The notes under the pieces were generated by a model, which was not told the origin of the DNA, made no database searches, and saw nothing but the letters and a program-made list of their open reading frames with translations. Of a stretch of DNA of 32,609 bases, positions 7,290 to 32,609 are shown in pieces (the stretch's first letter is position 1; each line of letters begins with the position of its first letter). This DNA comes from a virus, in the IMG/VR virus record IMGVR_UViG_3300042544_000946, positions 1 through 32,609 of that record. One strand, 5' to 3'. Position numbers and translations under genes: made by a program.

Positions 7290-7605
7290 GTTAAGACTGT
7301 ATGAAGTAGACAGAAAAGGATTCAAGACGCGGGGGCAGTGCCCGCCAGGTCCACCATAAAGTACATTGGCCAACACCCGACATACTGGGATAATAAGATG
7401 GCATAGCCGCTAGTGTATTTTATAATGGGCCTGACACAGGATCGATTGGGTCACAAGTATTGAAATGGACAGTCCGGCAATGTAGAAGCCGTTAGGATTG
7501 GGGTCTCCCGGTCGAAGAAGCACAACAAAGTAAACGCAAACGACTCACAGTTCGCATTGGCAGCCTAAACGCAGCCTAGGGTAAGACATACCTCGTAACA
7601 GAAAC
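7290..7605 (+). ncRNA. ssrA: Transfer-messenger RNA, circularly permuted (two-piece)
   Basis: The two halves occur in reverse order. The acceptor piece comes first: T-stem 7329-7333/7341-7345 with a 7-nt loop, acceptor 3' strand 7346-7352, discriminator A7353 and CCA 7354-7356. The coding piece starts at GGGCCTG (7427-7433), which pairs fully with acceptor strand CAGGTCC (one G-U), followed by ACAGGATCGAT as in other tmRNAs. The tag frame is 7536-7568, with resume codon GCA and peptide ANDSQFALAA then TAA, preceded by the usual TAAAC. About 70 nt (7357-7426) would be the excised spacer. The T-loop is GGCAGTG, not the TTC-type consensus. tmRNA rescues stalled ribosomes and tags the product for ClpXP. 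TAAATA at 7281-7286 may be its promoter. The ends are approximate. Confidence 0.93.
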
Positions 7606-7609
7606 TCAG

Positions 7610-7634: not shown

Positions 7635-7681
7635 GGCAAAAATTTCTTAAAATTGTAATCATACTGTAATCATTTTGTGTT

Positions 7682-7687
7682 TAAATA
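7682..7687 (+). promoter_or_regulatory. Late-type promoter element TAAATA for pstS
   Basis: TAAATA lies 29 bp before the GTG start of pstS and just after the tmRNA terminator, the only promoter-like signal in this gap. No TTGACA is seen at a suitable distance. No Pho box was recognised, but I cannot exclude a degenerate one. Confidence 0.5.
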
Positions 7688-7716
7688 TTAATATCACAAA
7701 CACAAGGAGACTTACA

Positions 7717-8805: not shown

Positions 8806-8829
8806 AAACTATACAAACAAGGAGTTCAT

Positions 8830-9162: not shown

Positions 9163-9163
9163 T

Positions 9164-9553: not shown

Positions 9554-9556
9554 ATA
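9549..9556 (+). promoter_or_regulatory. Late-type promoter element GATAAATA
   Basis: By T4 late-promoter geometry (last A of TATAAATA at -6) transcription would start at about 9562, one base before ATG 9563. No Shine-Dalgarno sequence precedes that ATG, so the mRNA is probably leaderless. Confidence 0.5.
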
Positions 9557-9562
9557 GATCTT

Positions 9563-11346: not shown

Positions 11347-12562
11347 TTTTTGCAATAAAAGCAAAGAGGATGTGGAGAAGTTAATTGTCGGGGACCACGC
11401 TGCCATTTGTAATGATTGTGTAGAGCTATGTATTGACATACTCAAAGATGAAAAAGTAAAAACTTTTCCTAATACACTTAAACTATTAAATCCCGTTAAA
11501 ATAAAAGAGTACCTTGACGATTATGTTATCGGACAGGACGATGCTAAGATTGCCCTAAGTGTAGCGGTTAGTCAGCACTTTAAACGTATCAATAATCCCA
11601 GTAAAGACATTGAACTAGAAAAGACTAACGTATTAATGTTAGGTCCAACAGGCTGCGGCAAAACAATGATGGCACGTAAGATTGCCGAATACCTAGATCT
11701 TCCATTTGCCATATGTGATGCCACAGGTATTACAGAAGCAGGCTACGTAGGTGATGACGTAGAAAGTATCCTAACACGTTTGATCAACGAAGCAGACGGA
11801 GACATACAAAAGGCTGCTCGTGGTATTGTTTACATCGACGAAATTGATAAGATTAGCCGCAAAGGCGAAAGTGCCAGTATTACTCGAGATGTGTCAGGTG
11901 AAGGTGTACAGCAGGCCCTATTGAAGATGATTGAGGGCAGTATTATGCGAGTTCCGTCAACCAGTAAAAGAAAGCATCCCGGCAGTGACATGCAGGAGAT
12001 TGACACACGCAGTATCTTGTTTATCTGTGGTGGCGCATTTGTGGGCATTGACAAACTTATTAAACAACGTACAGGTGCTAGAAGTGTAGGTTTCCATGCT
12101 AACGTAGATAACGTAGAAGATAACCCGGATGTGTTTCATGATGTAACAACCAAGGATCTCATCAAGTTTGGACTTATTCCCGAGTTTGTAGGTCGCTTCG
12201 GATTAATCACTAATGTAGATGAACTCGAAGAAGATCAACTTGTACAGATTCTAACAGATACTAAAAACAGTACTATTAAACAATATCAGTATATGTTCGA
12301 ATTAGACGGTATTAATCTAAGTTTTGATCAGGATGCACTACGTGAAATAGCAAAGAGAGCCAAGGACCTTAAGACTAATGCTCGTGGACTTAAGAACATT
12401 ATTGAAAAGGTTCTAATGCCTTACCAATTTGATGCTGTAGATCTCGTCGAACGCGGTTTGAAATCGATTCACATAAGTAAAGATACTATTGATGGCTCAC
12501 CGGCCACTATGATTTTTGATAAAAAGAAAAATGAGCAAAAACAACAAAGCACCAATGGGTAA
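11315..12562 (+). CDS. clpX: ClpX-type AAA+ unfoldase
   Basis: 415 aa, near the length of E. coli ClpX. The zinc-binding domain has four cysteines (C10, C13, C32, C35). The AAA+ core has Walker A GPTGCGKT (110-117), pore loop GYVG (143-146), Walker B IVYIDE (171-176) and the RKH loop (219-221). The ClpP-docking tripeptide reads VGF (258-260) where bacteria have IGF, so docking to host ClpP remains plausible. ClpX recognises the C-terminal LAA of tmRNA tags, and this phage encodes such a tag. No clpP is seen. It overlaps the upstream gene by 32 bp, and the bS21 gene starts inside its 3' end. Confidence 0.96.
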
Positions 12563-13413: not shown

Positions 13414-14460
13414 ATGCCGCAGAAAATTACAGCCACAATCACCCCTCAAGAATTTAAAGACTTATTTGGTTTTGATGAACCAAGTGGACTTTATAACAAC
13501 CCCCAGTTTAGACTAGTAATAAACAAGTTTGGTAGATGCTATTGGCTACTAAGTATTGACAACCTTCAAGGTCCAAGATTTAGTGGTAATAATGTCTACT
13601 ATCAAGGCAATAACTCTAGATTGATTCGAACCATCTATCCTCAGGCACGTAGAATCATTGACGTAGGTGCTAACGTTGGTAACAACACCATTGCCTACGC
13701 AGAATGGGCAGAGAACGTAGAAAGTTTTGAACCAACTCCTACTACTTTAACCATGCTAGAAGCCAACGTCGAAATTGCCAAACGTAGCAATCTACAAGGT
13801 GTATACTGGAAAGGCACTGATATTGCTGGTTCGATATATAGAGATGCAGATGCCCCCTCCGGTTGGTTTACTTGGAAAGGTGTACAACAATCTATGAACA
13901 TTGTTGGAAATATTAATATCCACAAGGTTGCTGTAACAAATCGAAACATAGGAACTATTGGCATCCAAGACCATCCCGAGCATGGGGGTCATAACTTTGC
14001 TGTCTATAATGAGAAACACGTTAAAAAATCACAACACGTTGTTCAAGTACCCGCCCGGACAATTGATAGTTTTAATTTTGAAGATGTGGATGCTATTAAA
14101 ATTGACGTAGAAGGCAGTGAGCTATTTGTTATTGAAGGCGCAGATGCTACTATTAAACGATGCAGACCTAGTGTACAGGTAGAGATCGTTCCAAAACAAT
14201 GTACACAATATGGTTACAATCCACAGGACTTGTATGATTACTTTGACAAATTAGATTATGTATGCGTATGTGCTGTACGAAAGCCATTAAATGCAGAACA
14301 AAAAGGTCTAGAATTTGGACAAGACATTGGAATGATACATCGTCAAATTCCAAAATATATGGATAGATTGTTTGTACCACGCGAAGTCCATTTTACAACA
14401 GATTACAGTATTATGCAACAAGCAGACAACGAGTTTGAAAAATTATTCGATTTTGGTTAA
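13414..14460 (+). CDS. FkbM-family SAM-dependent methyltransferase
   Basis: 348 aa from ATG 13414, which has AAGGAG 7 nt upstream. Motif I (RIIDVGANVGNNTIAYAEW) binds S-adenosylmethionine, followed by the acidic end of strand 2 (VESFEPTP). The FkbM hallmark IKIDVEGSELFVIEGA lies at about 255-270, then RPSVQVEIVPKQ. Residues 1-75 form an extra N-terminal part. FkbM enzymes methylate small molecules or sugars, often on surface glycans. In T4-like phages they are common and could modify host or virion polysaccharide, or DNA-linked groups. The substrate is unknown. A terminator follows directly. Confidence 0.9.
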   Translation: MPQKITATITPQEFKDLFGFDEPSGLYNNPQFRLVINKFGRCYWLLSIDNLQGPRFSGNNVYYQGNNSRLIRTIYPQARRIIDVGANVGNNTIAYAEWAENVESFEPTPTTLTMLEANVEIAKRSNLQGVYWKGTDIAGSIYRDADAPSGWFTWKGVQQSMNIVGNINIHKVAVTNRNIGTIGIQDHPEHGGHNFAVYNEKHVKKSQHVVQVPARTIDSFNFEDVDAIKIDVEGSELFVIEGADATIKRCRPSVQVEIVPKQCTQYGYNPQDLYDYFDKLDYVCVCAVRKPLNAEQKGLEFGQDIGMIHRQIPKYMDRLFVPREVHFTTDYSIMQQADNEFEKLFDFG

Positions 14461-14470
14461 ATTAATCTAA

Positions 14471-14496
14471 AAGGGTGTTGACAGACACCCTTTTTT
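14471..14496 (+). terminator. Intrinsic terminator after the FkbM gene
   Basis: AAGGGTGT (14471-14478) pairs with ACACCCTT (14485-14492), followed by TTTT. The loop contains TTGACA, the -35 box of the next promoter, so terminator and promoter interlock. Confidence 0.85.
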
Positions 14497-14506
14497 ATTG
14501 TATAAT
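14478..14506 (+). promoter_or_regulatory. Consensus sigma70-type promoter nested in a terminator
   Basis: TTGACA 14478-14483 and TATAAT 14501-14506 are exact, with a 17-bp spacer formed by the descending arm and T-run of the upstream terminator. The predicted start is near 14513. Confidence 0.85.
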
Positions 14507-14512
14507 TATTAC

Positions 14513-14604
14513 ATGAACTAGCAATAGTGTCTTGTTCATAAAACACTAGCCCTTGTGGTTAGTATAAAATTTTTAACAGGCCGTGTGCCAGAAAAGGAAA
14601 TATC
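14513..14604 (+). promoter_or_regulatory. Leader RNA beginning with a compact H-type pseudoknot
   Basis: Starting at the predicted first base, ATGAAC (14513-14518) pairs with GTTCAT (14534-14539). GC-TAGTGT (14521-14522 and 14525-14530, two A bulged) pairs with ACACTAGC (14543-14550). The helices cross, giving an H-type pseudoknot with loops TA, CTT and AAA. A run ATAAAATTTTTAA (about 14564-14576), a small GGC/GCC hairpin and the RBS AAAAGGAAA follow before ATG 14605. It resembles small pseudoknot riboswitches in size, but I cannot match a known class. Confidence 0.6.
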
Positions 14605-16080
14605 ATGAAAGTAAAATTTTCACCCATCTACGGTGACGTTCATCCGTTTGAAAAACGCAGGTTTGGTAAAAATCTTGTCAAAGTAACAGAAGAGGATCCT
14701 AGTAATCCGTCTGATGCTGCAAAAAAGTTAACTTCTCTATCTAAAAAACAGCTTGAGAAATTGTGTAATAAACACAAAGTTCTCCACGAGCTCCCAATGA
14801 ATAATCCGCAGGAGAGTTTACCAAATATTATTGATGCTGTTTTAAATCACTTTGAAGAGACGGGCATCCTTAAAAATATCATTCTTCCGTTTATTGAAGA
14901 AAAATCTCCTCTCCAAGAACCAGACGAATTGTTGTATCCAATTGACCGAGTTTTTCTAAATTACGGTCCTGACGGTAAAGGTGGTCAGCGTAATCCTAAA
15001 CCTCGTCATGTATTAGAAATGATGCGTAAGTTTAATATTAAACTACTTACTGTAGGTATGGCCAGACGAAATAGCACAGGTCAAGTATTTGTTAATGAAG
15101 GTCAACAACGCAGTATTGCCGCAGGTATTTTAGGCAAATCTAAAATGTGTTATCAATGTCTTGTTAGTGACGACGAGGCCGACGATCCTATTGCTTATAA
15201 AGGTGAGAATAGCGGTAAGTTGTCACAGTCAGATGTAGAGACTTATGAGTCTGATGCAATTATTGCAAAAAACGCTCTCGAAAAATATTTGCTTAAGAAC
15301 GGTCGTGGTGTTCATACTGATCTAGATTTTGCATCTGTTCAACGAATTCTTAATGTTGGGCCAGAGCAGGACGAATTTGTCCATTATAAGATGAAACGTA
15401 TCCTATATTGGAATCGTAGATCTGTACAACAGATTCATTTAGTTAACTCTGATGCAGACTCAAAGACACGGTTCGCTACTAATCACTGTGGAAACTATAG
15501 TCAAACATGGGATATTTTTGAAACAGACGAATACACTGACAACAACGATCGTGTATTAAAATCTGCACTTGATTTCTATCAGCGTGTTTGGTCAAAACGT
15601 GCAATGGTCACCGGTGATTTGATTATGTTCTTAGAGTTCTTTTACTTTAATCAAGATTGGTTTTACGATTTTGACGAGAACGAACAAGAATATTTTTTAA
15701 TCCGGATGAAAAATGCTATACAACCAATTTGGGTTGATAATGAAACAGGTAATAAAGGTGCTGGTAACAGAGCAGTATGGGATGTTATCCAGGACGCTCG
15801 ATCTGCATGTTATCCGTTTAAAACAGTTGCAGACAAGCAAGCAAACAGCATTTACTACTCTGCGGCCAGTCCTCGAGTAGCACAATGCATGTGGATTGGA
15901 ACTGCACTTTATCATCTTCTTAAGGAACGCATGGATGAAGACGATGTTAAGTTATTGGTACAGCCATCTGTTATTACAGAAGATGGAACTGAGTTAGTTT
16001 ACGATAAGTTGATTATTGTTCCTAAATCTGCAGAGAAAAAACCTACTAAGGCAAAACTTAAAGTAGCTAAGAAAGCCTAA
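14605..16080 (+). CDS. ParB-like (ParB/Srx fold) phage protein
   Basis: 491 aa. Residues about 110-180 resemble the ParB N-terminal domain, with YPIDRVFLNYGPDGKGGQRN, then a helix and a hydrophobic strand (IKLLTVGMARR), then VFVNEGQQRSIAAGILGKS. The last corresponds to the 'dGqhR..Aa..lG' nucleotide-binding signature. The N-terminal 100 residues include a charged helical part, and the long C-terminal region (190-470) is helical with a Lys-rich tail. ParB-like proteins may bind DNA and CTP or act as nucleases. The phage family is uncharacterised to me. The consensus promoter suggests early expression and the leader holds a pseudoknot. The next gene starts 1 bp after its stop. Confidence 0.7.
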   Translation: MKVKFSPIYGDVHPFEKRRFGKNLVKVTEEDPSNPSDAAKKLTSLSKKQLEKLCNKHKVLHELPMNNPQESLPNIIDAVLNHFEETGILKNIILPFIEEKSPLQEPDELLYPIDRVFLNYGPDGKGGQRNPKPRHVLEMMRKFNIKLLTVGMARRNSTGQVFVNEGQQRSIAAGILGKSKMCYQCLVSDDEADDPIAYKGENSGKLSQSDVETYESDAIIAKNALEKYLLKNGRGVHTDLDFASVQRILNVGPEQDEFVHYKMKRILYWNRRSVQQIHLVNSDADSKTRFATNHCGNYSQTWDIFETDEYTDNNDRVLKSALDFYQRVWSKRAMVTGDLIMFLEFFYFNQDWFYDFDENEQEYFLIRMKNAIQPIWVDNETGNKGAGNRAVWDVIQDARSACYPFKTVADKQANSIYYSAASPRVAQCMWIGTALYHLLKERMDEDDVKLLVQPSVITEDGTELVYDKLIIVPKSAEKKPTKAKLKVAKKA

Positions 16081-16081
16081 G

Positions 16082-16615
16082 ATGCGTTACACTGATGTAA
16101 TAAATCAGATGATCCTCGATCGCAAGTTGGTCGAGGATCAACTAGATAGAAAAACTTGGAAAAATTTACAATCGTATCATCTTTGTCACGAACACAATGA
16201 TCTTAGATATGATCACATTTTAAGGATTATGAAAAAGTGGCACGGTGGTACGATCGAGCAATGGATCGAGTCTGACAAATGCCCAGTAAGTCAAAAAACT
16301 GATTCGGGTAAAGAATATCTCATAGACTATGGTAAGGGAAAGAATAGTGTGTTACATCAATTTAGGCATGCGTTTGTTTCTAATCCAGACCTTGCTTATG
16401 AATATAAGATGTTTCACACTCCAGAAAATGATCATTGCCCGCAACCAAAATCTAAAGGTGGGCAAGATTTGTTTGATAACTGTGAAGTTGTGATCAAATA
16501 CCCAAATCAATCATCGTTGGATTTAGATCTAGATGATATTATTGAGGCTTGTGAATTAACCCTAGCAACCTATAAACGAATTAGAGACAAATTGCAGATT
16601 GACAAACCTAAATAA
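16082..16615 (+). CDS. Phage protein of unknown function
   Basis: 177 aa, soluble. It contains several His/Cys residues (SYHLCHEHNDLRYDHIL, then DKCPVSQKT, FHTPENDHCPQPK) but no regular zinc-finger spacing that I trust. The C-terminal third is helical (LDLDDIIEACELTLATYKRIRD). It starts one base after the ParB-like gene, so it is probably co-translated and may be its partner. Its 3' end carries the complete -35 and spacer of the exonuclease promoter. No family is recognised. Confidence 0.7.
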   Translation: MRYTDVINQMILDRKLVEDQLDRKTWKNLQSYHLCHEHNDLRYDHILRIMKKWHGGTIEQWIESDKCPVSQKTDSGKEYLIDYGKGKNSVLHQFRHAFVSNPDLAYEYKMFHTPENDHCPQPKSKGGQDLFDNCEVVIKYPNQSSLDLDLDDIIEACELTLATYKRIRDKLQIDKPK

Positions 16616-16627
16616 AGACGATATAAT
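16599..16627 (+). promoter_or_regulatory. Consensus sigma70-type promoter placed for a leaderless mRNA
   Basis: TTGACA 16599-16604 and TATAAT 16622-16627 are exact and 17 bp apart. Only 6 bp separate the -10 box from ATG 16634, so the first transcribed base should be the A of the start codon. No Shine-Dalgarno is present. Confidence 0.8.
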
Positions 16628-16633
16628 AAACAC

Positions 16634-17164
16634 ATGGCAAAACATTTAATGATCGATATGGAGACTATGGCAGTTTCCCCAAACGCTGTAGTCCTCAGTC
16701 TAGGCGCAGTACACTTCAATCCCTATTCACAGGGCTATGGAGAAAAGATATATTTTAAAATTGATCTCGATGACCAAGACAAACTAGGCCGTGAAATCGA
16801 TCCCCAAACATTGGAATGGTGGGGGCGACAGGATCCTGCTATCATGGAAGAAGCTTTCAGCGAAGAAGGTCGTATTCCCCTAGTTGATGCTATGGATCAG
16901 TTCCACAAATTTGCTTGGAACTGCGATGCATATTGGAGTCATGGCGCTACCTTTGATCTTGTGATTATAGAAAACATTTATCGCCAACTTGGTAAACCAC
17001 TGCCATGGAACTATTGGCAACTACGCGATACTCGCACATTGTTTGATTTGGGCTACGATCCAGATATGCCACAGGGCAGTAAACACGATGCCCTGCAAGA
17101 TGCTATTCGACAAGCAGTAGGTGTGCAAAACATCTACGCAAAAATGAAAATCAGACCACGATAA
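16634..17164 (+). CDS. DEDDh 3'-5' exonuclease, DexA/Rv2179c-like
   Basis: 176 aa RNase H-fold exonuclease. The acidic catalytic set is visible: D8 and E10 (MIDMET), D108 (HGATFDLVII), H151 and D156 (KHDALQDAIRQA), which is the DEDDh type. The segment PQTLEWWGRQDPA (about 57-69) matches the 'T..WW..Q.p.a' feature of T4 DexA and the Rv2179c-like exoribonucleases. T4 DexA degrades single-stranded DNA 3' to 5', while Rv2179c acts on RNA, so the substrate is open. The gene is expressed from an exact consensus promoter and the transcript appears leaderless. Confidence 0.9.
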   Translation: MAKHLMIDMETMAVSPNAVVLSLGAVHFNPYSQGYGEKIYFKIDLDDQDKLGREIDPQTLEWWGRQDPAIMEEAFSEEGRIPLVDAMDQFHKFAWNCDAYWSHGATFDLVIIENIYRQLGKPLPWNYWQLRDTRTLFDLGYDPDMPQGSKHDALQDAIRQAVGVQNIYAKMKIRPR

Positions 17165-17287
17165 TGTTCATGGTTTCCCTATTACTAAAATAGGAAAATA
17201 CAATGGAAGACTCATGGTTTTCCATTGATTTCTTCATTAAATACATGTACAATAAATATTGTTTCATTCACACACAAAGGAGATATT
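17165..17287 (+). promoter_or_regulatory. Regulatory region of the ahpC-like operon
   Basis: TTGATT 17225-17230 and TACAAT 17248-17253 are 17 bp apart, a sigma70-type promoter. AATAAATA (17251-17258) overlaps the -10 box and could be a late element. A perfect 8-bp inverted repeat, CAATGGAA/TTCCATTG (17201-17208/17220-17227, 11-nt loop), overlaps the -35 and may be an operator. A further hairpin CCTATT/AATAGG lies at about 17178-17194. AAGGAG precedes ATG 17288. Confidence 0.55.
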
Positions 17288-17839
17288 ATGAAAACAGTGG
17301 GAGATAGATTGGAAAAATTTGCCGTAACAGGCGTGAACCCAGGTAAAGATGATTTCTTTACTATTACAGATGAGAGCTTTGCAGGAAAGTGGAAGGTAAT
17401 TGTTTACTATCCTAAGGACTTTACGTTCGTTTGTCCTACAGAAATTGTAGCCTACGATAAACTGTTCCAAGACTTTGCCGACCGTGACGCTGTATTGCTG
17501 ACAGGTTCAACAGACAACGAGTTCTGTAAACTAGCATGGCAACGTAGCCATGAAGATTTGAGCAAGATTAAACACATTCAGTTTGCTGATACTCAACGCC
17601 CTAACAACGAAACTTATGAGAATCTTAGCCTAATCGAACAGCTTGGTGTGTTCTATGCTCCAGCAGGTGCCGCACTTCGTGCAACATTCATTGTTGACCC
17701 AAACAATGAAATCCAACACGTTACTGTCAACAACTTGAACGTTGGTCGCTCACCCGAAGAAACACTTCGTGTATTGGATGCGCTACAAACTGGCGAACTA
17801 TGTGCTTGTAACCGTACAGTCGGCGGTGAGACTCTATAA
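17288..17839 (+). CDS. ahpC: AhpC/Prx1-type peroxiredoxin
   Basis: 183 aa from ATG 17288 (AAAGGAG upstream). Peroxidatic C49 lies in FTFVCPTEI with T46 and R131 as active-site partners. The C-terminal resolving region has C172 and C174 (ELCACNR), plus an additional C80. The CxC end is typical of the mycobacterial AhpC type, which takes electrons from AhpD, not from AhpF. An AhpD-like gene lies two genes downstream, which supports that pairing. It reduces hydrogen peroxide and organic peroxides and probably protects the infected cell. The stop overlaps the aldolase start (TAATG). Confidence 0.95.
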   Translation: MKTVGDRLEKFAVTGVNPGKDDFFTITDESFAGKWKVIVYYPKDFTFVCPTEIVAYDKLFQDFADRDAVLLTGSTDNEFCKLAWQRSHEDLSKIKHIQFADTQRPNNETYENLSLIEQLGVFYAPAGAALRATFIVDPNNEIQHVTVNNLNVGRSPEETLRVLDALQTGELCACNRTVGGETL

Positions 17840-18489
17840 TGTTAGAAACTATATGCGACACGTTAGTTGAAGCATATAGACGCAACTGGATTACCAGTCG
17901 TGATGGCAATGTTTCAATTCGTCATCACGACCGTGATCACTTTTATATCACACCCAGTGGCGTCCGTAAGCAGACCATGCAACCTGATCAGTTCAAGAAG
18001 ATTGGCATTGAGAAAGGTTACTACGATCAACCTCCTCGATTGTATCATGCTGGCAAGGAATTAGAGTACACTGACATTAGTGCTAACCTAAAGCCTAGCG
18101 GAGAACTACCATTGCACTTTGGCTTACAACGAGAAATGGGTCAACACTCAAGCGATGTTAGAGTTGTAGTTCATTTACATCCAACTTACTGCATTGCGGC
18201 CATGCATGCCGGTATTGATTTAGGAACGGTTAGTGCAGCCTTCCCAGAACTTAATCGCTATACTAAAGTTGCACCCAACGTTGGTGATGTTCCGCCTATC
18301 AGTCAAGAACTTGCTGATCGTTGTCACGAGAATCTACAGTTAGATAATCTAGGCAACATCGCCTACGATATTGTTGGTATCAAAGGTCACGGTGTTGTAG
18401 CCATTGACACAAGCCCATGGAGGGCGTTTGAACACATTGAACGATTAGAACATATTTGTCAAATCGTATTAGCATCAGGGAAATATTAA
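17839..18489 (+). CDS. Class II aldolase/adducin-family protein
   Basis: 216 aa. It carries the family landmarks: RDGNVSIRH (21-29), PSG (39-41), a candidate catalytic Glu E89 in PSGELPLH, metal-binding H112 and H114 (VVHLHPTY) and H184 (KGHGVVAI). The fold covers fuculose- and ribulose-phosphate aldolases and the methionine-salvage dehydratase MtnB. It does not clearly match one member, so the substrate is unknown. It may process a sugar phosphate or another carbonyl compound. It lies between ahpC-like and ahpD-like genes with 1-bp overlap upstream and a 1-bp gap downstream, so the three form one operon. Confidence 0.85.
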   Translation: MLETICDTLVEAYRRNWITSRDGNVSIRHHDRDHFYITPSGVRKQTMQPDQFKKIGIEKGYYDQPPRLYHAGKELEYTDISANLKPSGELPLHFGLQREMGQHSSDVRVVVHLHPTYCIAAMHAGIDLGTVSAAFPELNRYTKVAPNVGDVPPISQELADRCHENLQLDNLGNIAYDIVGIKGHGVVAIDTSPWRAFEHIERLEHICQIVLASGKY

Positions 18490-18490
18490 A

Positions 18491-18997
18491 ATGAGTTTTA
18501 TTGAATCAGTGAAAGGTGCGTTGCCAGACTACGCCAAAGATACAAAATTAAATCTGGATGCTGTATTGCTACGCAGTACATTGGATGCCGATGTTGCTAT
18601 GGGCTGTGCAGTAGCCGCTCTGGCCGCAACTGGCAACGGCAAAATATTATCAGTAATGTTAGCAGATGCTCCAGTACACGCAGAGTCAGCAATGACAGCC
18701 GCAAGCATTATGGCACAAAACAATGTATGGTACCCATTCGTTGAGATGGCTGATGATCCTAGTCTAAAAGGATTGCCAGCAGGTTTGCGTATGAACGCCA
18801 TTCTGCACCACGGTGGAACTACTAAGGCTAACTTTGAAGCATTCAGTCTTGCTGCCAGCATTGTGGGCAAGTGCCATTTTTGTGTTAAGGCACACTATGA
18901 CACACTTAAAAAGGAAGGCTATACTGTAGAACAACTTCGAGACATTGGACGTATTGCCAGCGTTATGAACAGTGTAGCCAAAGTGTTAAACAGTTAA
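18491..18997 (+). CDS. AhpD-like alkylhydroperoxidase
   Basis: 168 aa. It carries the complete AhpD catalytic signature E-x11-C-x2-C-x3-H: E116, C128, C131 and H135 (segment KCHFCVKAH). In mycobacteria AhpD is a thiol relay that re-reduces AhpC using lipoylated dihydrolipoamide succinyltransferase. Here the phage AhpC has the matching C-terminal CxC. Length is close to the single-domain-pair AhpD. The protein should act in the cytoplasm. A 570-bp non-coding region follows. Confidence 0.92.
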   Translation: MSFIESVKGALPDYAKDTKLNLDAVLLRSTLDADVAMGCAVAALAATGNGKILSVMLADAPVHAESAMTAASIMAQNNVWYPFVEMADDPSLKGLPAGLRMNAILHHGGTTKANFEAFSLAASIVGKCHFCVKAHYDTLKKEGYTVEQLRDIGRIASVMNSVAKVLNS

Positions 18998-19570: not shown

Positions 19571-20968
19571 ATGAACGCATTTGTTGAAGCGGTTAAGTCC
19601 GTTCCAGTTGAATCTCGTACCGCAAACGGTATGAAGACTTTTGAATCTAGCAAGAGTGATCTTGTAGATTTGTTCTTTGCCATTGGTGCAAGCCGTGGCA
19701 AGGATTTAAGCACTCAGTTTGCTCGCGCACTAGCACAAGACGAAACTCTTGCTCTACGTCTTTTGATGTGGGCACGTGACGTGCGTGGTGGCGCCGGCGA
19801 ACGTGACGTTGTTCGTAAGATTCTAGTAAATCTAGAAAAGACCAACCCAGCCGCATTGGCAAGAATTCTGCCACACCTGGCTGAATTTGGACGTTGGGAC
19901 GACCTATTGATTTTTACTTCCAAGGAAGTGAAGGCGCAGGCATTTACCCTAATCGGTGATGCGCTACGTGCTCGCAATGGGTTGGCAGCAAAGTGGATGC
20001 CACGTCAAGGTCCGTTGGCAGTTGAAATCCGCAATTTCTTCGGTATGAGCCCAAAGTTCTATCGTAAGAGTTTGGTTAACTTGAGTAAGACCGTTGAACA
20101 GAACATGTGTGCAAACACATGGGACCAAATCAATTATGGACACGTTCCATCGTTGGCGGCTGCTCGTTATCAAAAGGCTTTTAAGAAGCACGATGCTGTT
20201 GGTTATGATGCCTATAAGGCACGTTTGGTCTCTGGTGAAGATAAGGTTAATGCCGCAGCCGTTTACCCATACGATGTGATCAAGTCACATAAGTTTGGTG
20301 GAGACGCAACTGTGATCCAATCACAGTGGGATGCATTGCCAAACTACATCGGTGATGAACTGGTGTTGCCAATGTGTGACGTGTCTGGCTCTATGAGCTC
20401 ACCAGTTGGCGGAAACGCTAACTTGACTTGTATGGATGTTTGCGTGAGCTTGGGCTTGTACCTTGCTGATAAGAACACTGGTCCATTCAAGGACATGTTT
20501 TTGACTTTCTCTGCAAAGAGCAAGATCGAAATCTTGAAGGGTGACTTGTTAAGCAAGTTGGCTCAACTACAACGTGCAGATTGGGACATGAGTACCAACC
20601 TACACGCGGCCTTTGACACTGTATTAAACTACGCTGTCAAGGCCAATGTCGATGCCAAGGATATGCCACGGTATGTCCTTATCATGAGTGACATGGAGTT
20701 CAACGTTTGTACTCGCAACGATGACTCTGCTATGCAGATGATCGAACGCAAGTACAACGAAGCAGGATATACTGTTCCAAACATTGTATTCTGGAACTTG
20801 AACGCTCGTGCAGGTAATGTACCTGTTAAGCACGACAAGAAGGGTGTTGCCCTTGTTAGCGGATTTAGTCCAGCTATCATGAAGAGCATCCTGAGCGCTG
20901 AATCATTGGATCCTGTATCAGTAATGATGCAGACTTTGAACAGCCCACGTTATGCTGTAATAGCATAA
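19571..20968 (+). CDS. DUF2828 protein: TROVE/Ro60-like helical repeats plus vWA domain
   Basis: 465 aa. Residues 1-230 are helical repeats resembling the HEAT-like TROVE ring of Ro60, with the DUF2828 landmarks WARDVRGGAGERD (67-79) and YGHVPSLAAARY (189-200). Residues 262-430 are a vWA domain with a complete MIDAS: D270-x-S272-x-S274, T342 and D374 (MSDMEF). FWNLNAR (407-413) and KGVALVSGFS (424-433) are also family hallmarks. Ro60 binds misfolded RNAs and Y RNAs; RNA binding by DUF2828 proteins is not established to my knowledge. All 32 lysines use AAG and none AAA, unlike the neighbours, suggesting high expression or foreign origin. RBS GAAGGAAAG. It sits 27 bp after a large structured RNA. 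Confidence 0.88.
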   Translation: MNAFVEAVKSVPVESRTANGMKTFESSKSDLVDLFFAIGASRGKDLSTQFARALAQDETLALRLLMWARDVRGGAGERDVVRKILVNLEKTNPAALARILPHLAEFGRWDDLLIFTSKEVKAQAFTLIGDALRARNGLAAKWMPRQGPLAVEIRNFFGMSPKFYRKSLVNLSKTVEQNMCANTWDQINYGHVPSLAAARYQKAFKKHDAVGYDAYKARLVSGEDKVNAAAVYPYDVIKSHKFGGDATVIQSQWDALPNYIGDELVLPMCDVSGSMSSPVGGNANLTCMDVCVSLGLYLADKNTGPFKDMFLTFSAKSKIEILKGDLLSKLAQLQRADWDMSTNLHAAFDTVLNYAVKANVDAKDMPRYVLIMSDMEFNVCTRNDDSAMQMIERKYNEAGYTVPNIVFWNLNARAGNVPVKHDKKGVALVSGFSPAIMKSILSAESLDPVSVMMQTLNSPRYAVIA

Positions 20969-23946: not shown

Positions 23947-23989
23947 GGACATAGTGTCCAAACTATTCTTACTTACCAAGGAGATAAAA
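23947..23989 (+). promoter_or_regulatory. dnaK leader element shared with hsp20
   Basis: Hairpin GGACA/TGTCC (23947-23951/23955-23959) is followed by ATTCTTACTT (23965-23974) and AAGGAGA. The same order and spacing recur upstream of hsp20 (25913-25956), with a compensating base change in the hairpin. Confidence 0.65.
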
Positions 23990-25867
23990 ATGAGTAGAGT
24001 AATCGGTATCGATTTAGGTACAACAAATTCGTGTGTAGCAGTCATTGAAAATGGTGTTACAAAAATTATTGAGAATTCAGAAGGCGCACGTACTACCCCT
24101 AGTATTGTTGCCTACGCCAATGATGAAATCCTTGTAGGAGCTTCAGCAAAGCGTCAAGCAGTAACAAACCCAAAAAATACAATCTACGCAAGTAAGCGTT
24201 TGATCGGACGTAAGTTTACAGAACAAGCAGTACAAAAAGACATTGACTTGATGCCTTACAAAATTGTACAAGCCGACAACGGTGATGCTTGGGTACAAGT
24301 AAACGAGGACAAACTTGCTCCTCCACAAATCAGCGCAGAAGTCCTGCGTAAAATGAAACAGACCGCAGAGGATTATCTAGGACATGAAGTCACACAAGCG
24401 GTTATTACAGTTCCTGCATACTTTAACGACAGTCAAAGACAGGCGACTAAGGATGCTGGTAAAATTGCCGGCTTAGAGGTACTCCGTATTATTAACGAGC
24501 CTACTGCGGCAGCTCTTGCTTATGGCGTCGATAAAGCTGATAAAGCTGACAGGAAAATTGCTGTATATGACCTCGGGGGAGGTACGTTTGACGTATCGAT
24601 CATTGAAATTGCAAATGTTGACGGTGATAAACAAATTGAAGTTCTAAGCACTAACGGTGATACATTCTTGGGTGGTGAAGACTTTGACCAACGTATCATG
24701 GACTTCTTAGTAGCAGAGTTTAAGAAAGACAACGGAGTTGATCTTACCAAAGACATGTTGGCTCTACAGCGTCTTAAAGAAGCCGCTGAAAAGGCCAAAA
24801 TTGAATTGTCCAGCTCTGCACAGACAGATGTTAATCTGCCTTACATCACAGCAGACGCAAGTGGTCCCAAGCACATGAACGTTAAGATCACTCGTGCTAA
24901 ACTTGAGCAGTTAGTTGATGAATTAATTCAACGTAGTATTGAACCTTGTAAGACTGCCATGGCAGATGCCAAAGTCACAGCCGCAGACATTGACGAAGTA
25001 ATTCTAGTTGGTGGTATGACACGTATGCCCAAGGTATACGAAACAGTCGAAAAGTTGTTTGGCAAAGCACCACGTAAAGATGTTAATCCAGACGAAGCAG
25101 TGGCCGCTGGCGCCGCCATTCAGGGTGATGTACTAGGCGGTGGCCGTACTGACGTTCTATTGTTAGACGTTACTCCATTGAGCTTAGGTATCGAAACAAT
25201 GGGCGGGGTTATGAGCAAGTTGATTCAAAAGAATACAACTATTCCTACCAAGGCAAGTCAGACATTCAGTACTGCTGAAGACAATCAACCTGCGGTTACT
25301 ATCAAGGCGTTCCAGGGCGAGCGTGAGTTTGTCCAGCATAACAAGTTGTTAGGTGATTTTAATCTTGAAGGTATTCCTCCTGCTCGCAGAGGTCAACCTC
25401 AAATTGAGATTACATTTGACATCGATGCCAATGGTATCATGCACGTATCTGCCAAGGACAAGAACACAGGCAAAGAAAACAAGATCACTATTAAATCCAA
25501 CAGTGGCCTAAGTGAAGCTGAAATCCAAGAGATGATCAAGGATGCGGAACTTAATGCCGACGAAGATAAGAAAAAGCGTGAACTTGTGGAAGCACGTAAT
25601 GGTGCTGAGAATGCCATCTACTCTATCAAAGAGGACATGGAAAAATACATTGACAAAGTCACCGCTGAAGAAAAGGCCAACCTTGAAGATGCTATCAAGG
25701 CTGTCGAAGATGCTGCCAAAGGTGATGATCCTAAGATCATTCAGGATCTTGTACAGGCAATGTTCAAGGCCATGGGTCCTTTGATGGAAAAGAAACAGTC
25801 CGAAACTGCTGATGCTAAACCTGCGGATGACAATGTTGTTGACGCAGAAGTCAAAGAGAGCGTATAA
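23990..25867 (+). CDS. dnaK: DnaK (Hsp70) chaperone
   Basis: 625 aa from ATG 23990, which has AAGGAG upstream; the longer open frame includes the leader hairpin. It has a complete Hsp70. The ATPase domain (1-380) carries [10 protein letters not shown] (phosphate 1), [12 protein letters not shown] (phosphate 2) and LVGGMTRMP (adenosine). The conserved linker is [19 protein letters not shown], followed by the substrate-binding beta domain and helical lid. The tail ends [10 protein letters not shown], like the bacterial DVVDAEFEEV end. It refolds proteins with DnaJ and GrpE, which are not here, so host co-chaperones would be used. A full dnaK in a phage is unusual. It is followed by hsp20 with a matching leader. 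Confidence 0.97.
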
Positions 25868-25956
25868 TTGTTATAAATAGTACTGTGGGACACCTAAATG
25901 GGTTCCACAGTCGGGCATAGAGCCCAACATGATTCTTACTTTATAAGGAGAAAATT
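25839..25956 (+). promoter_or_regulatory. Promoters and structured leader of hsp20
   Basis: TTGACG 25839-25844 and TATAAT 25863-25868 (18 bp) overlap the end of dnaK. A T4 late-type TATAAATA lies at 25872-25879. The leader has hairpin ACTGTGG/CCACAGT (25882-25888/25905-25911), extended by ACC/GGT, then GGGC/GCCC (25913-25916/25922-25925), ATTCTTACTT (25932-25941) and AAGGAG. It could act as a temperature-sensitive structure, but the RBS is not obviously paired. Confidence 0.6.
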
Positions 25957-26391
25957 ATGAATCAATTAGTACGTTTCGACACCAATGCTCTAAACAGAGC
26001 TCTAGTAGGATTTGACACAATGTTTGATAACTTTGAACAGCGTCTTGCAAGTCAAATCAACAACTCATATCCCCCATACAACATTCTAAAACACGATGAC
26101 AACTCTTACGAGTTAGAAATTGCTGTTACTGGTTTTACACCAGAAGAAGTTGTAGTAGAACTTGACCAAAATCAATTGATAGTTAAGGGACATCGCAGCC
26201 ATGACGAACATGCTGAAACACAGTATCTACATCGTGGACTAGCAACTCGTGATTTTACACGTAGTTGGACATTGGCTGAACACATGGAAGTAGGAGAAGG
26301 CCGTATTAAAAACGGTGTTCTTACTATTGCTCTAACTCGTGTTGTTCCAGAAGCTCTTAAACCAAGAGTTTTAAAGATCAAAGCTGAGTAA
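25957..26391 (+). CDS. Small heat shock protein (Hsp20/IbpA-like)
   Basis: 144 aa. The alpha-crystallin domain spans about 38-128: YPPYNILKHDDNSYELEIAV, then the TRDFTRSWTLAEHMEV strand and KNGVLTIALTR, the 'NG.L.I.L.R' signature. The N-terminal arm (FDTNALNRALVGFDTMFD) and the C-terminal PRVLKIKAE, which includes a V-x-K-I tail resembling the I-x-I anchor, are IbpA-like. It holds unfolded proteins for DnaK to refold. Hsp20 genes are common in T4-like marine phages. The leader resembles that of dnaK. Confidence 0.95.
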   Translation: MNQLVRFDTNALNRALVGFDTMFDNFEQRLASQINNSYPPYNILKHDDNSYELEIAVTGFTPEEVVVELDQNQLIVKGHRSHDEHAETQYLHRGLATRDFTRSWTLAEHMEVGEGRIKNGVLTIALTRVVPEALKPRVLKIKAE

Positions 26392-26440: not shown

Positions 26441-26746
26441 ATGGCAACAGATACAATCATTGAAAAGAAATCCAAAGTTACCGACACTATTAAAGCGCCA
26501 GGTAAATTTAAAGTTGTCGTCTGCAATGACGATGTAACCCCTGTCGAATTTGTAATATCCATGCTGGTCATGGTATTCCGACACACTGAAAAATCCGCTC
26601 TAGAGCTAACACTGAAGATACACAACACCGGTAGTGCCGTAGCTGGTATTTTTAGCTACGAAGTTGCAGAGCAAAAAGCATTAGATGCAACCAATCTTGC
26701 TAGGGCCAACGGTTATCCTCTGATAATTAAAGTAGAACCAGAATGA
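26441..26746 (+). CDS. clpS: ClpS N-end rule adaptor
   Basis: 101 aa. The disordered N-terminal 20 residues are followed by the ClpS core: FKVVVCNDDVTPVEFVISML (23-42), with N29, D30 and D31 of the N-degron pocket. LKIHNTGSAVAGIFSYEVAE carries H61, which closes the pocket, and ANGYPLIIKVEPE ends the domain. ClpS delivers proteins with destabilising N-termini to host ClpA(P) and inhibits other ClpA substrates. In a phage it could redirect host proteolysis. It lies after hsp20 and before the heme oxygenase gene. Confidence 0.94.
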   Translation: MATDTIIEKKSKVTDTIKAPGKFKVVVCNDDVTPVEFVISMLVMVFRHTEKSALELTLKIHNTGSAVAGIFSYEVAEQKALDATNLARANGYPLIIKVEPE

Positions 26747-26754: not shown

Positions 26755-27291
26755 ATGAGCTTAAAAGATTTAACCAGTGCTAAACATGCAGAGGCTGAAT
26801 CTACTCCGTTTATGAAGGCAGTGTTTGCAAAGACCCTGCCTTTTGATTTGTGGGTAGATTGGACATATCAAAAGTGGCTATTCTACGGAGCCATTGAAGG
26901 TGCCGCAGGTGCTAATCGTTTACTAGGTGATTTACCTGATTTGCGTAGGGCATTTTATTTGTTCATGGATTACAATGAAATGAACACCGAACGTAAAAAA
27001 CACGAGTTTCGTCCTATTGCCATCGACTACTACAAATACCTAATTTCCATTGCCAACGATCCCAACAAGATTATGGCGCATTTGTACACATGGCACATGG
27101 GTGATATGTTTGGCGGCCAAATGATTAAGAAGATTGTACCCGGTGCTCACCGTAATCTAGAGTTCGAAGATGCTAAGACACTGATTACTAACATTCGTGC
27201 TAAACTAGATGACAGCATGGGCGACGAAGCCAATGTAGCCTTTGACTGGGCAATACGTATGATGAGGGATTATGACAATAGTTTGGGATAA
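26755..27291 (+). CDS. Heme oxygenase (biliverdin-producing)
   Basis: 178 aa, all-helical. Residues 6-22 (LTSAKHAEAESTPFMKA) match the heme-binding N-terminus of heme oxygenase, with H11 the likely proximal ligand. AHLYTWHMGDMFGGQMIKK (108-126) matches the distal helix 'lGDLsGGQ' signature, whose glycines sit over the heme. It opens heme to biliverdin, CO and Fe2+ using ferredoxin electrons. It is shorter than most bacterial HO1 (about 240 aa), but phage versions are often short. It overlaps the bilin reductase gene by 20 bp, a strong pathway link. Confidence 0.9.
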   Translation: MSLKDLTSAKHAEAESTPFMKAVFAKTLPFDLWVDWTYQKWLFYGAIEGAAGANRLLGDLPDLRRAFYLFMDYNEMNTERKKHEFRPIAIDYYKYLISIANDPNKIMAHLYTWHMGDMFGGQMIKKIVPGAHRNLEFEDAKTLITNIRAKLDDSMGDEANVAFDWAIRMMRDYDNSLG

Positions 27292-27943
27292 GGTTAGTAA
27301 ATTAGCCGCAGACATCACTGAAAAATTTAATGCTACAGGCGAAGTAATTAACGGCTCGTCTGAAGATCAATACGGATGGCATAATACTCTTTGGTCTAGT
27401 AATAGATACCGCAGAGCTCACGTTGAGATCGTAGACTTCCGCGAAACTTACAAAATATACATTTTACACGTTACTGTATTTCCACACTTTAACGACCCTA
27501 GTCCTATATACGGGTTTGATGCGGTATGCGGACCTAACAAAATAACGGGTGCGTTCCATGATTTCAGCCATGCAGGTGACCCTACAAGTTTTATGTATCT
27601 ATGGTTTAAAGCAAAGGTAAATGGGTTAGAATGGAACAAACCTAGACAATTGCCCGAGTGGGCACAGGCTATATTCAGCCCTGCTATGGTAGCCGCAGGT
27701 AATCTGCAAGATGAATCTGAAATAGATCAGCTCTGTGATACAGCATTAACCACACTTGATTTCTATCTAGCAAAAATAGGTAAAGATCAACAAAGTGGCG
27801 CTGATTATCATATGGCCCAAAACCGCTATTGCCACTATCAAAAGCAAAATCCTCACGTAATCAACAGCATGATCAGCATGGGCATTCCTGAACCTAAAAT
27901 GAAGCAGTTTGTACGAGAAATTCTATTTCCTGAATTTCACTAA
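27272..27943 (+). CDS. Ferredoxin-dependent bilin reductase (PcyA/PcyX-like)
   Basis: 223 aa. Family landmarks: NTLWSSNRYRRAHVEIVD (38-55), ILHVTVFPHF (64-73), PIYGFDAVCGPNKITGAFHD (78-97) and the C-terminal HYQKQNPHVINSMISMGIPE then LFPEF. H66 and D83 correspond in position and spacing (17) to His88 and Asp105 of PcyA, the proton-donating pair, and E52 may match Glu76. It should reduce biliverdin from the overlapping heme oxygenase to a phycobilin. The viral enzyme PcyX, described from uncultured oceanic viruses, makes phycoerythrobilin, so product assignment needs assay. There is no photosynthesis gene nearby. Confidence 0.9.
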   Translation: MTIVWDKVSKLAADITEKFNATGEVINGSSEDQYGWHNTLWSSNRYRRAHVEIVDFRETYKIYILHVTVFPHFNDPSPIYGFDAVCGPNKITGAFHDFSHAGDPTSFMYLWFKAKVNGLEWNKPRQLPEWAQAIFSPAMVAAGNLQDESEIDQLCDTALTTLDFYLAKIGKDQQSGADYHMAQNRYCHYQKQNPHVINSMISMGIPEPKMKQFVREILFPEFH

Positions 27944-29969: not shown

Positions 29970-29990
29970 TTGATAACACGGGAGCAGTCT

Positions 29991-30476
29991 ATGAAAAAGA
30001 CAAGTGCAATTATAGGAGTCGTGCTAACACTGGCAGTCTCCGCAGTTAGCGCAGAATTAGTTCAACAATTTAAAAATCCAGCTTTTAGCGGCATTGGATT
30101 TAGTAGCCATGTTCTAACAATCGACAGTATTGAAAAATCACGACGTGATGCCATTGAAGCAGATAAAAAATCTGCAATTGCCAAAGCAGAAGCAGAACTT
30201 CTAAACACACCGTTGAATAGATTTATGAGTCTATTCCAAAGCCAAGTATATGCACAACTTGCCACACAGTTAAGCAATAACTTGTTTACCAACAAATGTA
30301 GTGCCGCAGATGGCACAGCAATTCCAGGTTGTGTAAATCCAACAACAGGTAATTTTGTATTAGATGGTAACACAGTTACCTGGGTCAAGGCCAATGACAA
30401 AGTTACGCTAACAGTGGTAGATGCCAAAGGTAATAGAACCACTGTTGTTGTTCCAATTGCTAGTTTTAGTTTTTAA
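29991..30476 (+). CDS. csgF: CsgF-like curli secretion accessory protein
   Basis: 161 aa from ATG 29991. The signal peptide is MKKTSAIIGVVLTLAVSAVSA. The mature N-terminus ELVQQFKNPAFSGIGF corresponds to the CsgF segment (QFRNPNFGG in E. coli) that inserts into the CsgG pore and narrows it. A central helix with charged residues and the C-terminal beta part (TVTWVKANDKVTLTVVDAK) follow the CsgF plan. Unlike E. coli CsgF it has C103 and C114, which may form a disulfide loop. It precedes csgG by 10 bp. The protein would act at the outer membrane. Confidence 0.9.
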   Translation: MKKTSAIIGVVLTLAVSAVSAELVQQFKNPAFSGIGFSSHVLTIDSIEKSRRDAIEADKKSAIAKAEAELLNTPLNRFMSLFQSQVYAQLATQLSNNLFTNKCSAADGTAIPGCVNPTTGNFVLDGNTVTWVKANDKVTLTVVDAKGNRTTVVVPIASFSF

Positions 30477-30486
30477 GGAGTAAAGA

Positions 30487-31425
30487 ATGAAAGCAATTAA
30501 ATTATCCTTAATCACACTAGCCATAGTAGCCCTAGCAGGTTGCTCAACAGTTCGCCCATGGGGCAGTACACAGATTAAAGAAGAAGCCAAAGTCAGCGAA
30601 ACAATCAACAAGAGTTTTAGTAATGTACCAAGCCCAGCAGGCCCGGCAGTTACCGTGGCAGTATACGGTTTTAAAGATATGACTGGACAGCGTAAACCAA
30701 GTTCAACATTGAGCTTGTTCTCTACAGCAGTTACACAGGGTGCAGAAGCATACCTAATTAAAAGTTTACAAGAAGTTGGCAATCGTCAATGGTTCACAGT
30801 AGTCGAGCGTGTTGGCCTAGACAACTTATTAAAAGAGCGTCAGATGATCAAGCAGACACGTGAGATCTATGAAGGCGCAAATGCCAAACCTTTACCTCCA
30901 CTACAGATGGCGGGTGTTATTCTTGAAGGCGGCATTATTGATTATAACTCTAATACACTAACAGGCGGCACAGGTGCTCGTTGGTTGGGCATTGGAACAC
31001 AAACAGCCTACACTCAAGACGTGGTTGTGATCAGTTTACGTCTTGTGAGTGTTCAAACTGGGGAAGTATTAACTACTGTAACAGTGGAAAAGAACTTGCT
31101 CAGTACCGCCGATGGCGCTACTGCATTTAAATTCTTTAATCAGGCTACACAGGCATTTGAGTTCGATTCAAGCCAGACATTTAATGAACCTGGCAACTAT
31201 GCACTACGTTCAGCAATTGAGACAGGTGTTGTTGAGTTAATTAAGAAAGGCGAACGTAACAGCTTATGGAAATTCAAGGAGAAACCCAATGAGTTGGTTC
31301 AAAAGGAAACCCCACGTGAAGGAGCCGCCAAAACTCCACCCGCACCACAGCAGTCCAATATCGGAAAGCGTGATGAAGGAAGCAAAGAAAAAAGTAGTTG
31401 GAGTAGACTCCAATTCTGGAAGTAA
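30487..31425 (+). CDS. csgG: CsgG-like outer membrane curli secretion channel
   Basis: 312 aa. The lipoprotein signal ends in LAGC with lipidated C19. The core follows CsgG: AVTVAVYGFKDMTGQRKPSS (about 54-73), QWFTVVERVGLDNLLKERQ, an AGVILEGGIIDYNSNTLTGG segment and AYTQDVVVISLRLVSVQTGE. These form the periplasmic part and the transmembrane barrel of the nonameric pore. The last 50 residues are an extra Lys/Pro/Gln-rich tail ending WSRLQFWK that E. coli CsgG lacks. It would export curlin-like subunits, or form a large outer membrane hole late in infection. Confidence 0.94.
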   Translation: MKAIKLSLITLAIVALAGCSTVRPWGSTQIKEEAKVSETINKSFSNVPSPAGPAVTVAVYGFKDMTGQRKPSSTLSLFSTAVTQGAEAYLIKSLQEVGNRQWFTVVERVGLDNLLKERQMIKQTREIYEGANAKPLPPLQMAGVILEGGIIDYNSNTLTGGTGARWLGIGTQTAYTQDVVVISLRLVSVQTGEVLTTVTVEKNLLSTADGATAFKFFNQATQAFEFDSSQTFNEPGNYALRSAIETGVVELIKKGERNSLWKFKEKPNELVQKETPREGAAKTPPAPQQSNIGKRDEGSKEKSSWSRLQFWK

Positions 31426-31562
31426 GAAGAAAAAAGATTAGGTGTTAGAATTTTTACAGTAAATTTTTTTACATGTAAACAAATTAACATCGGTGTTTAA
31501 CTTGTAAGGAAATACATTTAAATATTATTGGAGGGGACATTATTAAGTCCAAAGGAAACAAA
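31426..31562 (+). promoter_or_regulatory. Intergenic control region between csgG and the curlin-like gene
   Basis: Very AT-rich. It holds a perfect 12-bp palindrome TTTACATGTAAA (31468-31479), TAAATA (31519-31524) as a late-type element, and hairpin GGAC/GTCC (31535-31538/31547-31550) just before AAAGGA and ATG 31563. No gene is seen. Confidence 0.5.
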
Positions 31563-32351
31563 ATGAAACAAATATTATTAGCACTAGCAATATTAACAGC
31601 GTTCCCGGCCTTAGCCCAAACAGCGGTTACAGCCCCGAGTGCTCCTACAATACCCACAATGGTCACAGTTAGCCCTAACGCAACAGCAGCCCTGGCCATT
31701 AGCACAACTAACCGCATCTTCATTGATCAAAGCGGTGACAATCCTGATGTCAATATGACACAAGATGGTACAGGTAACAAAGCTGGTTCAGCCAATCGTC
31801 CAGTATATCTACGTGGTATCGACCAAACAGTTGTTACTCGTCAAATTGGCGTTAACAACGACATCAACTTAGAACTTGTCAATGATACAACTGGTTCTGG
31901 TAAAGGTGTAACTGTTACAATCCAACAAATTGGCGACAGCAACATTGTTGATGCAGCCTGCGGATATGGCACAGCTTCAACAGGCGGAACAGCCCTAACA
32001 GGTTGTAATGCCGCTGACCTAAACTGGAAGTTTACTGGCGACAGCAACGACTTTCAATTCCGTGGCACAGGTGCTGACTTAAAGAGCGCCATTGATGTCT
32101 CTGGTGACAGCAACGTATTTCGTATTGATGCCATTGGTGACAAGCACAGCCAAACTATTAAAGTAGCTGGTGACACCAACACATTTAACATCAATCAACG
32201 TAGTACTGGTGCCGCTGGAAGCAGTATCTGGGTTGATCTAACAGGTAACAGCAATAGCCTTACAATGAGCCAAACTGGCACCATTGACAGTGTTATCAAT
32301 ATCAAGAGTGTATCTAACTCAGGTACATTTAACATCACTCAGAAGAACTAA
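31563..32351 (+). CDS. Curlin-like secreted repeat protein
   Basis: 262 aa. The signal peptide is MKQILLALAILTAFPALA. The mature part is Asn/Thr/Gly/Gln-rich and built of degenerate repeats of roughly 20-24 residues. The hallmark is I/V-x-Q-x-G-D-S/N-N, for example VTVTIQQIGDSNIVD, DVSGDSNVFRIDAIGD and KVAGDTNTFNINQ. It ends GTFNITQKN. This is the strand-turn pattern of CsgA/CsgB amyloid subunits, with repeats less regular than in E. coli and an intervening Cys pair near residues 140-151. With CsgF and CsgG upstream it is the obvious export substrate. It could form fibres or a plug. Confidence 0.85.
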   Translation: MKQILLALAILTAFPALAQTAVTAPSAPTIPTMVTVSPNATAALAISTTNRIFIDQSGDNPDVNMTQDGTGNKAGSANRPVYLRGIDQTVVTRQIGVNNDINLELVNDTTGSGKGVTVTIQQIGDSNIVDAACGYGTASTGGTALTGCNAADLNWKFTGDSNDFQFRGTGADLKSAIDVSGDSNVFRIDAIGDKHSQTIKVAGDTNTFNINQRSTGAAGSSIWVDLTGNSNSLTMSQTGTIDSVINIKSVSNSGTFNITQKN

Positions 32352-32360
32352 GGACTGGCA

Positions 32361-32609
32361 ATGAGAATTGCCCTCTTTATCATTGGCCTGTTAATGGCCG
32401 TTACCGCTTGGGCAGATATTGGTTCTGTCACTGAAGCGTCAGGTACGGCTATTATTAAACGTGGTAAGGATACTATTCAAATTGCCAAAGGCACAGAAAT
32501 CAAAATCAACGACAAAGTTGAAACCAAGAACGGAAAAGTCAAGATCGTTTTTAAAGACGATACAAACGTTACTGTTACTGAGTCGAGTAGCCTTGTTATT
32601 GACGACTTC
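32361..32609 (+). CDS. Secreted FecR-domain protein, 3' partial
   Basis: 83 codons are visible and the frame runs off the window. The signal peptide is MRIALFIIGLLMAVTAWA. A FecR-type domain follows: DIGSVTEASGTAIIKRGKDT, then IKINDKVETKNGKVKIVFKD and the strand TNVTVTESSSLVIDD. It matches 'G.v....G.a.v.R.g......g..l...D.v.T..+s...i.f.Dgt...l...s.l.i'. It starts 9 bp after the curlin-like gene with AAGGA as RBS, so it belongs to the same unit. Secreted FecR-domain proteins lie beside curli-type genes in other genomes as far as I recall. Function unknown. Confidence 0.82.
   Translation, partial: MRIALFIIGLLMAVTAWADIGSVTEASGTAIIKRGKDTIQIAKGTEIKINDKVETKNGKVKIVFKDDTNVTVTESSSLVIDDF

Follow-up and report, generated by a model that had tools for sequence, protein, structure and literature searches.

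Why would a phage that probably infects a non-photosynthetic bacterium carry genes for making a phycobilin? The question is raised by two overlapping genes, for a heme oxygenase (HO) and a ferredoxin-dependent bilin reductase (FDBR), at positions 26755-27943 of IMG/VR virus record IMGVR_UViG_3300042544_000946. The window that we analyzed is this complete record of 32,609 bases, itself a fragment of a phage genome. An earlier, sequence-only reading had predicted both genes, and their open reading frames (ORFs) lie exactly where it placed them. We read the pair as a functional phage module for turning heme into a bilin, which would form an operon with the genes for Hsp20 and ClpS, work in a non-photosynthetic and probably betaproteobacterial host, and have the bilin itself as its aim (probability roughly 0.68 for this reading as a whole). 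Support comes from the identity of the genes, the folds and catalytic residues of their products, the purifying selection on them, their synteny and the lack of photosystem or known bilin acceptor genes in related phage records. The pair had been presented as a surprise in such a phage, which it is not, as HO-FDBR pairs in phages of heterotrophs are already known (PcyX with its HO, Pelagibacter phage Mosig and freshwater phage CB_2). It adds one more case to these, in a clade of large freshwater phages. For its linkage to Hsp20-ClpS, the exchange of reductases and the phages with two reductases described below, a limited search of the open literature found no earlier report.

The HO gene (26755..27291, plus strand) encodes a protein of 178 aa that matches the Heme_oxygenase profile PF01126 at 55.2 bits (E = 1.1e-14; cut-off 23). 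HmuO of Corynebacterium diphtheriae (PDB 1iw0) is its nearest solved relative by sequence search (E = 9e-10) and also heads the Foldseek results obtained with its AlphaFold2 model (predicted local distance difference test score, pLDDT, 93.8; template modeling score 0.83 by query length), which include other HOs. The proximal histidine (His11) and the distal-helix motif GDMFGGQ (residues 116-122) are both there; in an alignment with 17 relatives H11, G116, G120, G121 and Q122 are invariant and D117 is nearly so. The ratio of nonsynonymous to synonymous substitution rates (dN/dS) against relatives is 0.017-0.083, with some dS values near saturation. By profile cut-off, by proximal histidine plus GDxxGGQ and by fold, this is an HO. 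It shares fold and motifs with HmuO, although the sequences have diverged far and the HmuO chain in the PDB has 215 residues.

The FDBR gene (27272..27943, plus strand; 223 aa) passes the profile cut-off (PF05996, Fe_bilin_red, 62.4 bits, E = 6.3e-17; cut-off 31) and its product has the fold of the family. PcyX (PDB 5owg) is the nearest solved relative (E = 2.3e-47, about 40% identity), and Foldseek with the AlphaFold2 model (pLDDT 90.8) placed PcyA and PcyX on top and also returned PebA, PebB and PebS. Values of dN/dS against relatives are 0.036-0.073 (again with some dS values near saturation). The key motifs that the sequence-only reading had pointed out in both proteins, among them His66 and Asp83 of the reductase, hold up in our alignments, where these two residues are invariant. 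It had overlooked Glu52, which aligns with Glu76 of Synechocystis PcyA in a residue scan. Its proposal that the two enzymes would together convert heme into a phycobilin is supported by family, fold and catalytic residues.

The two frames overlap by 20 bp (27272..27291, plus strand), as do the HO and FDBR frames in nearly all of dozens of related phage contigs. The arrangement is not due to chance, and the overlap suggests translational coupling. The gene for ClpS, an N-degron adaptor, ends 8 bp before HO (26441..26746, plus strand; PF02617, 85.7 bits) and is preceded by that for the small heat-shock protein Hsp20 (25957..26391, plus strand; PF00011, 60 bits). Hsp20, ClpS, HO and FDBR are closely packed in that order and form a conserved block. 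We classed related loci by the reductase residue at the Glu76 position. Where enough upstream sequence was present, HO lies upstream of FDBR at 40/40 Glu-type and 6/6 Ser-type loci, and Hsp20 and ClpS precede the pair at 32/40 Glu-type, 6/6 Ser-type and 6/31 Asp-type loci. Three phage contigs taken from metagenome-assembled genomes (MAGs; L144, L145, L150) likewise carry Hsp20-ClpS-HO. The gene for DnaK (23984..25867, plus strand), used below for inferring the host, is the upstream neighbor in many relatives and was found in 39 related loci. A sigma70-like promoter match (TTGACG-18-TATAAT) lies before hsp20 (25839..25868, plus strand); it is weak, as shuffled versions of the region contain more promoter-like matches than the region itself.

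Which bilin the reductase makes may depend on one active-site position, the product-linked residue being Glu76 in Synechocystis PcyA and Asp55 in PcyX (PMC10151467, PMC11480375); Glu76 is tied to 18-vinyl reduction (PMC10151467). E52/H66/D83 of the phage enzyme correspond to the PcyA triad E76/H88/D105, and Glu52 stands at the position held by Asp in 5owg and in the Mosig enzyme. On this ground we rejected the name PcyX; by its triad the enzyme is PcyA-like, yet it falls outside the cyanobacterial PcyA clade. Since the enzyme has the PcyA triad and lacks the Asp typical of PcyX, we favor phycocyanobilin as its product, with some confidence. The reductase of CB_2, whose HO-FDBR pair was expressed and makes phycocyanobilin, also lacks the PcyX Asp55, and this lack was offered as the explanation of its product (PMC11480375), which supports, without proving, the same product here. 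The main competitor is that the enzyme functions as a PcyX and yields phycoerythrobilin. That 5owg is its closest solved relative and that its clade is nested among Asp-type enzymes speak for this, but the Glu at the Asp55 position speaks against it, and we consider it unlikely, at perhaps one chance in four.

A tree of 64 phage reductases, including PcyX 5owg, puts the window enzyme in a phage-only Glu-type clade (support 99/99) nested among Asp-type (PcyX-like) enzymes. The sequence-only reading had named PcyA, PebS and PcyX for comparison. A loose affinity to PcyX was found: all of these enzymes belong to one AX phage group that includes 5owg, but 5owg itself sits on a separate branch. No grouping was seen with cyanobacterial or cyanophage PcyA, a separate clade with long joining branches, or with PebS of P-SSM2, a distant outgroup that has a gap in place of Glu52 and Asn in place of His66.

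The Ser-type reductases form one clade (100/99, including one Cys-type row), whereas the HOs of the same loci do not, and a constraint joining those HOs is rejected (approximately unbiased test, p-AU = 2.6e-6; the group was not named in advance). In the HO tree, some neighbors of the window come from loci whose reductase is Ser-type, Gln-type or doubled. Four records (L089, L090, L091, L092; contigs of 229, 164, 193 and 38 kb) hold one HO followed by an Asp-type (PcyX-like) and then a Glu-type (PcyA-like) reductase. They represent two distinct sequences (L089/L090 and L091/L092), and their paired reductases, adjacent in L089 at 5524-6204 and 6201-6869, are 41-42% identical to each other with both frames open. 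Because Ser-type reductases cluster while their HOs do not, and because of the two-reductase records, we conclude that the reductase has been swapped or doubled while the HO before it was conserved. A broader idea, which we put forward tentatively and regard as somewhat doubtful, is that large phages whose hosts are non-photosynthetic freshwater bacteria adjust the kind of bilin that is made: in a fixed Hsp20-ClpS locus the HO would be conserved while reductases that differ in the product-determining residue (Glu, Ser, Asp and others) replace one another behind it, one lineage having Glu- and Asp-type enzymes side by side, and the bilins would act on some target in the host or the virion, either independently of light or in sensing it.

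Other variants occur at these loci. Ser, Gln, His, Cys or Asn occupies the Glu76 position, with HO still upstream, in L027, L032, L033, L093, L096, L118, L024, L035, L034 and L075; known enzymes allow no prediction of the products of these types. A deep phage FDBR clade (L074, L146, L147, L148, L149) has Lys at the Glu76/Asp55 position (KHD), and three of its contigs were assigned to a Rhodobacteraceae MAG that seems to be contaminated with phage. ClpS and HO are separated in L089 by a beta-ketoacyl-synthase-like ORF. The gap between HO and FDBR in L031 holds an alpha/beta-hydrolase-like ORF and not a lost reductase.

The phage had been described as free of photosynthesis genes, and this extends to its relatives: among 30 related phage records (61-323 kb, mostly incomplete) a profile search found no Photo_RC (psbA/D). 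Nor did these records yield a GAF domain or a Fer2 (2Fe-2S) ferredoxin. Phycobilisome matches in 4/30 were dismissed, being below cut-off and inside long ORFs (756 to 2199 aa). As no Fer2 ferredoxin was found in these mostly incomplete records, the electrons for FDBR must come from the host, or from a type of ferredoxin outside the Fer2 search.

The host had been called proteobacterial, and the evidence agrees: the window encodes IscU and IscA and a permuted (two-piece) transfer-messenger RNA (tmRNA) with the tag ANDSQFALAA, and its DnaK is sister to betaproteobacterial DnaK. In the tree the phage DnaKs fall into a single clade (SH-aLRT 100) whose sister group contains Cupriavidus and Caballeronia (support of the join, 91), with E. 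coli, Pseudoalteromonas and one alphaproteobacterium falling outside. The closest DnaKs in genomes are 70-75% identical to that of the phage, which was placed through the named Cupriavidus and Caballeronia sequences and the tree. The tmRNA lies between iscA and pstS (7295..7568, plus strand; RF04321, 103.1 bits); it was missed by ARAGORN and found by Rfam. In a fine search of the window, beta_tmRNA was the best of its clan at 78.1 bits, under its gathering score of 84, which it passes in relative L013; a tmRNA is also present in L197. The DnaK tree and the beta_tmRNA match together make a betaproteobacterial host probable.

No FDBR was present in any of 399 genomes from the order to which the genome with the closest DnaK belongs. 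Among alphaproteobacteria, 2/385 genomes have one above cut-off; one is a MAG whose matches are phage contigs and the other is G695. A bacterial origin for the close FDBR relatives was rejected, all 7 matches from one scan of genome contigs being in MAGs and the five whose gene neighborhoods were viewed all being phage-like contigs. Searches of a phage collection with ClpX, DnaK, ParB-like and NrdB returned no close cultured relative.

From these data we infer the enzymatic activity, product, electron donor, host and purpose as follows. During infection HO and FDBR would be produced jointly from an operon that also includes Hsp20 and ClpS. The phage HO would cleave heme of the host, yielding biliverdin IXalpha, CO and Fe2+. 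A host ferredoxin would then supply the four electrons with which FDBR reduces the biliverdin, the most likely product being phycocyanobilin. The aim would be the reduced bilin itself, which could protect against redox or other stress or serve as the ligand of a host protein, and iron release would be a by-product. A protectant role fits the Hsp20-ClpS block. We favor the bilin over iron as the aim because FDBR is always present and because relatives add AlaS, the first enzyme of heme synthesis. AlaS is above cut-off in 9/30 related records, which fits making a bilin rather than harvesting iron; it lies near the reductase in L003 and overlaps it in L046. Searching with these two proteins (tblastn), we found no AlaS in the 32.6-kb window fragment, which thus lacks a CB_2-type AlaS cassette. 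The L046 overlap (8818-10672, in marine-type contigs) joins AlaS to an Asp-type FDBR, with no HO found upstream.

Iron could still be the purpose. Iron supply has been proposed for phage HO-FDBR genes, as discussed in PMC11480375. In this view host heme iron would be freed for the phage NrdB, for Fe-S clusters (IscU/IscA) or for virion iron, and FDBR would only pull HO forward by removing biliverdin. HO does release one Fe per heme, and NrdB, IscU and IscA are encoded in the same window. However, HO alone would suffice for this, yet in Glu- and Ser-type loci it is always found with FDBR; AlaS and the ferrochelatase near the Mosig pair feed heme synthesis, which would consume that iron first; and IscU/IscA are not regular neighbors, occurring in 1 related locus (flanks are limited). 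A purely iron-releasing function is weakened by these points, and we consider it improbable.

About equally improbable is that the bilin serves light signaling, loading or displacing the chromophore of a host bacteriophytochrome and so altering the response of the host to light during infection. The CB_2 bilin assembles a working phytochrome in vitro (PMC11480375). The sequence-only reading had pointed to bilin-binding photoreceptors of the host; a PHY (phytochrome) domain is above cut-off in 41/399 genomes of the nearest-DnaK order, but about nine in ten have none. No GAF domain was found in the 30 related phage records. That the two genes are decayed relics or misannotated unrelated genes is suggested by nothing beyond their moderate Pfam scores and is refuted by dN/dS (0.02-0.08) and residue conservation, along with confident folds and wide conservation, which leaves it a negligible chance.

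Some points weigh against a bilin-making module with phycocyanobilin as its product. The reductase is only ~40% identical to 5owg and its clade is nested among Asp-type enzymes. According to a 2026 paper, the regiospecificity of FDBRs cannot be predicted reliably (PMC13193486), so the product may be phycoerythrobilin or some other bilin. No phage-encoded acceptor was found in the 30 related records; as most are incomplete and the window is a 32.6-kb fragment, one could lie elsewhere.

Among known systems, CB_2 (vHemO with vPcyA/X) is compared here by its published description (PMC11480375): it too is a large freshwater phage with HO and FDBR together, no PcyX Asp55 and a predicted non-photosynthetic proteobacterial host. 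It differs in having AlaS nearby and in its predicted host, the alphaproteobacterium Methylocystis, whereas the window has no AlaS and betaproteobacterial signs. PcyX, reported from phages other than cyanophages (PMC13193486), comes with its HO from marine phage metagenomes (EBK42635, PDB 5owg); it shares the catalytic His and Asp but has Asp in place of Glu at the product-linked position, is 40% identical and belongs to a different clade. Pelagibacter phage Mosig EXVC030M (MT647606), an isolated myovirus of a heterotroph (SAR11), has the same overlapping pair, but its FDBR is Asp-type and 38-39% identical to that of the window, a ferrochelatase is nearby and no Hsp20-ClpS adjoins. Cyanobacterial and cyanophage PcyA share the Glu/His/Asp triad, but cyanophage PcyA is only 22-27% identical over most of the length, and both belong to a separate clade.

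In most cases, bilin genes of phages have been interpreted as aids to light harvesting in cyanobacteria. In phages of heterotrophs, a pair that is strictly conserved and accompanied by neither photosystem genes nor a recognizable acceptor points to another reason for bilins or heme turnover in infection. The Glu- and Ser-type clades, together with the two-reductase phages, offer a panel of enzymes on which to learn how the product is determined by a residue, and the constant Hsp20-ClpS neighborhood gives a hint about function.

ClpS, ClpX, Hsp20, often DnaK, and a ClpA-like ATPase and DnaJ make up much of a protein-quality-control system in these phages; ClpA is the usual partner of ClpS. In the close relative L191 (G405:1-20000) the ClpA-like ATPase and DnaJ are encoded on the minus strand at 13785-16073 and 16578-17399. 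The 207.8-kb relative G405 has, besides these, a T4-type clamp loader, RIIA, PhoH, DNA ligase and 40 tRNA genes. Host-like genes of the window encode IscU, IscA, a PstS-like binding protein, ClpX, AhpC and a carboxymuconolactone decarboxylase-family (AhpD-like) protein (6599-8721, 11315-12562, 17225-18997). A 465-aa protein with DUF7788 and DUF2828 (19571-20968) is encoded near the pair in several relatives. Downstream, at 29970-32609, lies a curli/type VIII secretion-like set that adjoins the HO-FDBR block in many relatives: a CsgF-like protein (29970-30476), CsgG (30487-31425), a secreted repeat protein of 262 aa (31563-32351) and a further ORF open at its 3' end (32361-32609).
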